Of a stretch of 46,117 bases of DNA, positions 1-42,117 are shown piece by piece. This DNA is from Candidatus Tayloriibacteriota bacterium. Lineage in GTDB: Bacteria; Patescibacteriota; Minisyncoccia; Phycocordibacterales; PALSA-1337. A program made the translations under genes and the position numbers. Every line of letters starts with the position of its first letter. Positions within the stretch are counted from its first letter, which is position 1. The stretch spans positions 1 to 46,117 of the forward strand of contig PLXZ01000004.1 in the NCBI GenBank assembly GCA_003151615.1. Direction: 5' to 3'. The notes under the pieces are model-generated. The model saw nothing but the letters and a program-made list of their open reading frames with translations. It was not told the DNA's origin and did not search any database.

Positions 1-138
1 CTCACCGCCCGTCAACTCAAGGGAGTTGGGAGTGCCCGAAGTCCGTCTTTATGGCGGCCTAAGGCAAGCTCAATGACAGGGAGTAAGTCGTAACAAGGCA
101 CGGGTAGCGGAAGCTGCTCGTGGATTATTTCAAATTGA
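1..138 (+). rRNA. rrs: 16S ribosomal RNA, 3' end (partial)
   Basis: The window opens inside helix 44 with the conserved 'CACCGCCCGTCA' and runs through 'AAGTCGTAACAAGG'. Helix 45 is intact: a 10-bp stem at 99-108/113-122 (one G-T wobble) capped by the GGAA loop that KsgA dimethylates in other bacteria. The tail is abnormal. Where most bacteria have GGATCACCTCCTTA, this gene has GGATTATTTCAAAT, so the CCTCC anti-Shine-Dalgarno core is absent. The end at 138 is set by analogy with E. coli and is approximate. No 23S, 5S or spacer tRNA follows; a terminator and protein genes come next. Confidence 0.95.
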
Positions 139-350
139 TCAAACGATGTGCCCAGAATTTATTCTGAAGCCATCTTACCGAGTCGATTGTTTAGCATTCG
201 CAAGAGTGTTAAACCACAGTAATTGTTCTCAACTGCAAATGGAACACTCAGTCCGCGAGAGAAAGGACAAAGGAGGGTGCCACCTTAAGAGGCCCTCTCC
301 GGTGAACGGAACAAAATAAAGGATATTAAAGCAATAGCAAGCATAAGCAA
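139..350 (+). other. 16S 3' trailer, no gene seen
   Basis: This stretch between the 16S end and its terminator has no credible ORF and no tRNA. It contains a G-rich/C-rich imperfect stem (GGAGGG near 272 with CCCTCTCC near 293) that could help pre-rRNA processing. The stem encloses 'CCACCTTAAG', a weak resemblance to the missing 16S tail. I see no group I intron core, and the length is short for one. Confidence 0.5.
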
Positions 351-417: not shown

Positions 418-423
418 TATAAT
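418..423 (+). promoter_or_regulatory. -10 box, predicted leaderless start
   Basis: TATAAT lies six bases before the ATG at 430, so transcription should begin at or next to the start codon. The same geometry recurs across the window. It also argues that the protein starts at 430 and not at 388. Confidence 0.7.
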
Positions 424-429
424 TTTGTC

Positions 430-1239
430 ATGAAAACTAAAAACAATAGCGTATTGAATATGGTGAAAGTTTTATCCCTCTCCGTTCTCCTCGCCGCCGG
501 CGTCAGCTACATATTCGCCTGGACTGGTCCTTCGACCACGCCGCCGGGCGGGAATGTCGCGGCGCCTCTCAATGTCGCCACATCATCTCAGACCAAAATG
601 GGTCCTCTTATCGTCAATTACGCCAACCTCTTTTCACCGGCGTTGGAACTTCTTGGTCCGATCCAAATCGTTGATGGCACGCAGGCTTCCGGTTCGGTTC
701 TAACGTCCGACGCCAACGGTATAGGACATTGGGCTACGAGTACGTTGAGTGAAGGAAATTTACAATATGTAGCGACCACCCCAACAGAGATATTCGGGCG
801 AGGCTTTAAGATGGGAGATCAGGCAAACGACGGAAGTCCTTCAGTCTACGCTTTTCCCGCTGAATATTTTGACTCAAATTCTACCTACACCAATGAAGGA
901 AGCTACGTAACGGTAAATTATCCAACAGGCATACCCTCAAACGCAACTGCGCTAGAGGTTAAATTTTTTGCCTATAGTAACGGTGGTTCGTATAGTTCTA
1001 CATGGGACTCTCCCACAACTCAGTTGTGGGTCAAAGCAAGTAACATGCCAGAAACTGTGGTAGTCAGCGCACACGATGCCATACAAGACTCTAATGCTGA
1101 TTCAGAAACCAATACAATGCTTATCCCATACTCTTCTGACAGACAAGTTCAATTTAAATGGAACACTAGCGCTAGTGCGAGTGGCTCTGCAGATCCAGCG
1201 GCAGTTCGTGCTATAGTCGTTGGCTATATGGCTGGGTAG
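430..1239 (+). CDS. Secreted surface protein with fibre-like modules
   Basis: This 269-residue protein has a basic N-terminus and a hydrophobic segment ending near 'SYIFAW', which reads as a signal peptide or anchor. Next comes 'TPPGGNVAAPLNV' followed by 'SQTKMGPLIV', a module I recall from many CPR surface proteins. The rest is rich in Ser, Thr, Asn and Gly and looks like beta-sheet, ending 'VRAIVVGYMAG'. It is probably cell-surface or exported; a role in adhesion is inference only. I chose the ATG at 430 because a TATAAT box sits six bases upstream. The next reading frame (1239-1562) looks like the broken continuation or a decayed second module. Confidence 0.75.
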   Translation: MKTKNNSVLNMVKVLSLSVLLAAGVSYIFAWTGPSTTPPGGNVAAPLNVATSSQTKMGPLIVNYANLFSPALELLGPIQIVDGTQASGSVLTSDANGIGHWATSTLSEGNLQYVATTPTEIFGRGFKMGDQANDGSPSVYAFPAEYFDSNSTYTNEGSYVTVNYPTGIPSNATALEVKFFAYSNGGSYSSTWDSPTTQLWVKASNMPETVVVSAHDAIQDSNADSETNTMLIPYSSDRQVQFKWNTSASASGSADPAAVRAIVVGYMAG

Positions 1240-41700: not shown

Positions 41701-41706
41701 ATTCCC

Positions 41707-42102
41707 GCTGTACCAGACAACCGCTGTGGTTAACGGCGAAAGCCGCTGGCCATGGAGGAAAGTCCGAGCATCGGCTTTGCGGCCGCGCAAGCGGCCATAC
41801 AGCAGAAGGGTAGCGGGTAACGCCCGTCCGGCGCAAGCCGTGAGGTGCGAACAGAGACGCCCGAGTCACCGCAAGGTGCGTTTGAAAAAACAGGGCATCC
41901 ATGCGGAGCAATCCGCGCGGATGAGCCGCTTCGGCAACGAGGCGGGTGCAACGGCTAAATCCTTACTTCGATGCAAGGCCGTGTCCCGTGCAGCAATGCA
42001 AGGGAAGTGCCGCTCGAGGTATGCGGTAACGCATATCCCAGATAAATGGTTGTCGATTATGGTCCTCAAAAGCCAATAATTACAGAACTCGGCTTATAGG
42101 TA
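41707..42102 (+). ncRNA. rnpB: RNase P RNA
   Basis: The catalytic RNA that trims pre-tRNA 5' ends. Conserved landmarks are 'GAGGAAAGTCCGAGCA' near 41755, 'CAGAAGGGTAGCGGG', the core 'GGGTGCAACGGCTAAATCC', 'AGATAAATGGTTGTCG' near 42041 and the 3' strand 'TTACAGAACTCGGCTTATAG'. It is of ancestral type A length (about 395 nt). Ends are estimated from the promoter and the last helix. Confidence 0.95.
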
Positions 42103-42117
42103 CAACAACATCAAAGG

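Follow-up and report, generated by a model that had tools for sequence, protein, structure and literature searches.

Absence of the anti-Shine-Dalgarno sequence from the 16S rRNA gene of a Candidatus Tayloriibacteriota genome and of nearly all readable genomes of its order

Few stretches of bacterial RNA are as highly conserved as the anti-Shine-Dalgarno sequence (ASD) in the 3' tail of 16S ribosomal RNA (rRNA). Translation of leaderless messenger RNAs (mRNAs) is known in archaea, mycobacteria and Deinococcus. We investigated a stretch of 46,117 nucleotides (nt) from a Candidatus (Ca.) Tayloriibacteriota bacterium (Patescibacteriota; contig PLXZ01000004.1 of assembly GCA_003151615.1), referred to below as the window, which begins with the 3' part of a 16S rRNA gene whose tail lacks the ASD. 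More than 100 taxa with 16S rRNAs that lack the ASD are on record (PMC6107228). In 2024 they were also described in single genomes of Ca. Campbellbacteria, Wolfebacteria, SR1 and Peribacter, and a "Shine-Dalgarno (SD)-scarce" class iv, without CCUCC, was defined that includes Ca. Campbellbacteria, Ca. Wolfebacteria and SR1 (PMC10783764). The initial annotation of the window, which knew of such loss in a few reduced endosymbionts, was right that there are precedents and drew their range too narrowly.

The genome studied here resembles class iv of PMC10783764 in having no CCUCC in the tail and few SD motifs. Further, Ca. Campbellbacteria RIFOXYC2_FULL_35_25 (L221) belongs to the order under study and has nearly the same tail. 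Unlike in the single candidate phyla radiation (CPR) genomes of that report, the loss extends here over an order, is repeated in the class, and is accompanied by intermediates and by leaderless-type promoters. PMC6107228 covers endosymbionts and Bacteroidetes without an ASD (Carsonella, Hodgkinia, Blattabacterium, Chryseobacterium, mycoplasmas), and here, as in these, the ASD and the enriched SD motifs are missing together. However, those taxa belong to other phyla and are mostly extreme symbionts or Flavobacteriia, whereas the present lineage is environmental and rich in species, and its genomes measure approximately 0.4-1.4 Mb. The Bacteroidia with a sequestered ASD (Flavobacterium johnsoniae, PMC9976891, PMC8710568) are similar in their SD-independent initiation and in keeping bS21, but their CCUCC is present and hidden by bS21, bS18 and bS6, and in many Flavobacteriales rpsU has a strong SD; here CCUCC is absent and rpsU has no AGGAG. 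The -10 box is placed for a transcription start at AUG, as in users of leaderless mRNA; in contrast to the known ones, this case lies in Patescibacteria and is predicted from sequence alone. An ASD-less 16S is already known, including from a Ca. Campbellbacteria genome, a name that also occurs in this order. The new part is the order-wide fixation, the repeated loss in the class and the leaderless-type promoters in Patescibacteria; we found no description of these in the literature searched, with subscription papers outside its scope, which is weak evidence of novelty.

We observed that GGAT is followed by TATTTCAAATTGATC and that CCTCC is absent from the tail (Table 1). The Rfam alignment to SSU_rRNA_bacteria had full posterior confidence through the tail, and therefore the register of the tail is secure. 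In this alignment the family consensus columns CACCUCCUUU correspond to UAUUUCAAAU in this genome. KsgA, the methylase of the helix 45 loop, is encoded in the genome, in agreement with an intact helix 45. The initial annotation had described just these letters, namely an intact helix 45 with a GGAA loop, a securely aligned tail and no CCTCC core after GGAT. The absence of the ASD from this 16S is confirmed, and we consider it very likely that the gene is functional.

Further, we compared the 16S tails of the order, the class and the phylum in genome samples drawn by the search tool. The search pattern had a variable gap, as a fixed spacer of 24 nt found nothing and the real spacer is 23 nt. 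Among 197 genomes of the order, the 3' end was readable by this pattern in 41, and CCTCC was absent in 40 of them, with tails near GGAT[TC]A[AT]TTC[CA]AATT. Since the tail is conserved in 40 of 41 genomes, it reflects neither chance nor an assembly error. The apparent ASD-positive exception (G180; L069, G180:C6) was rejected as a contaminant on a 4-kb contig: its 16S was 90% identical to that of E. coli over 240 nt and approximately 84-86% identical (longest piece) to class members. Exact matches to the tail of the order were found in genomes named Ca. Kaiserbacteria, Taylorbacteria, Zambryskibacteria and Campbellbacteria, and in some labelled Nomurabacteria or Paceibacterota. The order probably contains the first four of these groups, and the class is probably Paceibacteria.

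For the 106 class members that fall outside the order, CCTCC was present in 56, one base off in 13 and absent in 37; the one-base-off intermediates were CATCTCC, TTTCTCC and CACCTTC. Counted by family (48), it was present throughout in 17, absent throughout in 24, one base off throughout in 4 and mixed in 3. One ASD-less entry in the otherwise ASD-positive family f96 (G440; L073, G440:C15) is probably misbinned, as it lies on a 5.5-kb contig and shares its helix 45 and tail with G475, which belongs to another family; we excluded it from the analyses of motifs, hairpins and the tree. Among some 120 genomes of the phylum outside the class, only about two did not keep CCTCC. We built a 16S tree of 92 rows from an alignment without helix 45 and the tail, after removal of ten rows, long or gappy, whose clustering in a first tree was odd. 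The label "absent" required 8 changes on this tree, at least 5 of them forced by well-supported branches. The clade of the window (43 rows) had no CCTCC at all (support 100/99), and two further ASD-less clades (99/99 and 100/96) were separated from it by relatives that keep the ASD. The outgroups on the tree all had CCTCC. Nearly all outgroups keep CCTCC, and therefore the absences are losses. The tree points to at least three well-supported independent losses in the class, and to more if the singletons f104, f111 and f112 hold.

The assembly of this genome (G000) comprises 923 kb in 5 contigs and is 92% complete. It contained one 16S gene only; no second copy, and none with CCTCC, was detected in it. 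The gene is split: its 5' part ends contig C1 (G000:C1:10856-11566), its 3' part begins contig C2, on which the window lies, and approximately 600 nt between them are unassembled. A leader on C1 that ends 5 nt before the 5' end of the 16S is perfectly complementary over 18 nt to the trailer in the window (TGAACGGAACAAAATAAA), while the maximum in 20 shuffles was 11 nt. A genome of the same family, G039, has 17 nt of a nearly identical stem at the corresponding place. We take this to be the classical 16S processing stem. Because the 18 nt pair perfectly, the two pieces of the 16S belong to one transcript, with a trailer between helix 45 and the stem. The joined gene grouped with its own family in the 16S tree (support 100/91). 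For long leader and trailer stretches, the energies from RNAduplex did not improve on those of shuffles, in this genome and many others, and the method was replaced by exact complementarity.

We quantitated SD motifs before open reading frames (ORFs) called at the leftmost ATG with a length of at least 100-120 amino acids (aa), which gave 242 starts from approximately 300 kb of C2, window included. SD 4-mers (GGAG, GAGG, AGGA) at -20 to -4 were found before 7.4% of the 242 ORFs and in 6.7% of shuffles. The same caller on 50 kb of E. coli K-12 gave 55-73% versus 23-24%. In the window only 1 of 41 ORFs carried even an SD 4-mer, so the remark in the initial annotation that its mRNAs almost never show GGAGG-type motifs was correct, and the count against shuffled controls extends it beyond the window. 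At the level of the class, where motifs were counted in stretches around the 16S only, AGGAG or GGAGG was used by 6.7% of genes in CCTCC-keeping and 5.9% in CCTCC-less members (p = 0.60). Since SD use is equally low in CCTCC-keeping relatives, its scarcity is not simply a consequence of ASD loss; most likely it is an older, class-wide state.

Upstream of ATG, the signals that stood out most in this genome were TGCTA and TATAAT. A TATAAT-like box at -14 to -11 was found in 51 of 242 genes, about a fifth, versus 8.7 expected, with a sharp peak exactly at -12 (28 genes, 10 of them with extended TG). In the window, 16 of 41 ORFs, the gene right after the 16S included, had a -10-like box 6-9 nt before ATG; in E. 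coli the same caller found a -10 box at that position in 0 of 37. With the end of the box 6 nt ahead of ATG, the expected first transcribed base is the A of the start codon. No clear motif was obtained for a -35 element in the leaderless-type genes. The other genes had A-rich leaders. The box at ATG was also present in outgroups, somewhat weaker than in ASD-less genomes, and is apparently widespread in the phylum sample; leaderless-type promoters thus probably predate the loss of the ASD.

Era is an assembly GTPase, and bS21 adjoins the ASD in other ribosomes. The sequence bound by Era is GAUCACCUCC (PMC10582724). Neither this genome nor any of 77 other class members tested, with or without ASD, gave an Era match above the cut-off; in this genome the search returned generic GTPase-domain matches only (best 24 bits, cut-off 116). 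This class-wide absence agrees with the report that Era is absent from most of Paceibacteria (PMC12641178). bS21 is present (G000:C2:67272-67499, 96.8 bits with a clade-specific profile), and neither AGGAG nor GGAGG precedes the start of its gene, rpsU, in this genome. A coupling of bS21 loss to ASD loss, as PF01165 gave bS21 in about half of ASD-less and four fifths of ASD-keeping genomes, was rejected as a detection artefact, since the clade-specific profile found bS21 in 31 of 32 genomes retested, this genome included. An S1-domain protein is also encoded (a frame of 452 aa with three or more S1 domains); together with the A-rich leaders, its presence is consistent with S1-assisted initiation.

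Taken together, we are highly confident that the ASD was lost in practically the whole order; translation most likely starts there through leaderless mRNAs, S1-assisted binding and reinitiation. This view is built on the tail and its distribution, the lack of another ASD source in the assembly, SD scarcity, the position of the -10 box, the absence of Era and the presence of bS21, KsgA and an S1 protein; from these we infer leaderless transcription, the mode of initiation and the order of events. Ribosomes of the lineage would be unable to choose starts by pairing between SD and ASD. Many mRNAs may be leaderless, transcribed from at or near AUG through a -10 box 6-9 nt before ATG, and their 5'-terminal AUG would be recognised by ribosomes carrying initiator transfer RNA. 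The remaining genes may depend on S1-assisted binding to A-rich, unstructured leaders and on reinitiation inside operons. Before the ASD was lost, the class would already have used SD rarely and Era would already have gone. With low SD use and no Era to read GAUCACCUCC, selection on the ASD would be weak, so that it may have eroded several times independently. We tentatively extend this to a class-wide history, which is plausible though short of probable: leaderless and S1-type initiation would have largely replaced SD use before the ASD vanished, Era would have gone, at least three independent erosions would have followed, the loss would have become fixed in the order, and a hairpin in the tail of the 16S precursor would have been kept by compensating changes for 3'-end processing.

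Several points weigh against this interpretation. The ORF starts are simple leftmost-ATG calls and do not come from a trained gene finder. The mature 3' end of the 16S rRNA and the transcription starts are predictions from DNA, and so is the estimate that about a fifth of genes have leaderless mRNAs. The -10 box at ATG was found in 14% of genes in ASD-keeping versus 19% in ASD-less relatives (p = 0.04), and hence is not specific to the loss. At 92% completeness, an unassembled second 16S is conceivable for this one genome. Finally, AGGAG at -10 to -14 was found in 32 of 760 genes of ASD-less relatives (approximately 4%) versus 6.9 expected, which is 4-5 times the level of shuffles, and the favoured model leaves these residual motifs unexplained. 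AGGAG persisted in the ASD-less entries L035-L068 and L070-L149, in which the only 16S read lacked CCTCC.

This enrichment would be accounted for if SD motifs were still recognised by other means, so that AGGAG on a few genes is still read, or if such genes were recent acquisitions not yet adapted. We regard this explanation as rather unlikely, although it fits the enrichment. In this genome AGGAG at -10 to -14 occurs on only 3 of 242 genes, and a second ASD source was looked for and not found. One of the three genes encodes a serine recombinase, and AGGAG-bearing genes had Pfam matches more rarely than length-matched controls (5/17 versus 13/20, p = 0.049); both favour acquisition over function. 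The easiest reading is that residual AGGAG marks recently acquired genes, with a function still conceivable.

It could also be proposed that the new tail, which is conserved across the order, acts as an alternative anti-SD and pairs with a new AATTTGAAATA-like mRNA motif. We consider this very improbable and rejected the candidate, since 5- and 6-mers complementary to the tail were at or near shuffle level before starts, both in this genome (0.198 versus 0.172 and 0.029 versus 0.027, respectively) and in the order (0.209 versus 0.200 and 0.030 versus 0.032). Complementary 4-mers were slightly high in this genome only (0.612 versus 0.516).

The conserved tail may have another role. Where relatives have kept the ASD, it can form pairs with the nucleotides that directly follow it (CTCC...GGAG), and many tails of the order form a small hairpin at the position of the ASD with other letters (TTCC-AAAT-GGAA, TTTCA-AAT-TGAAA). 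The stem score in the order was 8.38 versus 7.02 for flank swaps between families, and 3 of 500 swaps reached it. This is a modest signal, with only partial control for relatedness. Three hairpin pairs remain in this genome. It is possible that a processing hairpin was kept while the letters of the ASD were lost, and that the tail hairpin of this genome is its remnant.

The initial annotation had concluded that the ASD was lost and that mRNAs do not use SD, and it had named a second 16S with CCTCC, an intron restoring CCTCC and an assembly error as findings that could overturn this; each was looked for and none was borne out, the single 16S of the assembly disposing of the first. The second would mean an intron or insertion after GGAT, with the true 3' exon and its CACCTCC further downstream. 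CPR rRNAs often carry insertions, the 16S of several relatives spans more than 2 kb, and in this genome helix 45 is separated from the processing stem by a long trailer of about 177 nt. However, CACCTCC or CCTCCTT was found in none of the trailers (+14 to +300) of 67 ASD-less relatives, and CCTCC occurred there at chance level (7 versus 4.3 expected; the reversed motif also 7). The absence of a hidden CACCTCC or CCTCCTT in these trailers excludes an intron that restores the ASD. Further, the Rfam scan of the window matched no intron family, and the tails are conserved as tails across the order. We therefore hold an ASD separated in this way to be extremely improbable. The chance that an assembly error, contamination or a pseudogene conceals a normal 16S tail is next to negligible, for although the gene is broken across two contigs, the same lack of CCTCC is seen in 40 of 41 genomes of the order, the perfect stem links the leader on C1 with the trailer on C2, the tree places the joined gene with its own family and the genome has no other 16S. 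The preferred reading thus remains loss of the ASD.

Table 1. Features at the start of the window, with positions counted from its first nucleotide.
Feature	Position	Strand	Remark
3' part of the sole 16S rRNA gene	1..135	+	Rfam RF00177, 93 bits, model 1386-1533
GTCGTAACAAGG	87-98	+	Read from sequence
Helix 45, intact	99..122	+	Arms 99-108 and 113-122, GGAA loop 109-112
GGAT and TATTTCAAATT, no ASD	122..136	+	GGAT at 122-125; CACCTCCTTTC expected there
Weak tail hairpin TCA-AAT-TGA	130..138	+	Stem score above flank-swap control across the order
Trailer arm of pre-16S processing stem	303..320	+	18/18 nt pairing with leader on C1
TATAAT -10 box ahead of the next gene, 6 nt from its ATG	418..423	+	Predicts leaderless mRNA
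First ORF downstream of the 16S (269 aa), secretion predicted	430..1239	+	Leaderless-type start without SD

A lineage with a fixed loss beside ASD-keeping and half-eroded relatives is a natural series, in which one can ask what keeps the ASD and how translation starts without it. There are practical consequences too: starts in these genomes can be called wrongly by gene finders that rely on SD scores, and expressing the genes in other hosts requires leaders to be added.

We made some further observations on the RNA genes. The spacer from helix 45 to the processing stem (window 136-302) is long: it measures about 175-180 nt in this genome and in G039, and approximately 100-250 nt in other relatives. 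In many class members (L042, L051, L056, L081, L082, L087, L088, L110 and others) the 16S spans more than 2 kb from the 5' motif to helix 45, which suggests large insertions or introns. Rfam found no 23S rRNA within the 46 kb after the 16S (window 1-46117), and the rRNA genes appear unlinked. The window also contains a bacterial class A RNase P RNA at 41705-42112, whose score of 107 bits barely exceeds the gathering score of 100.
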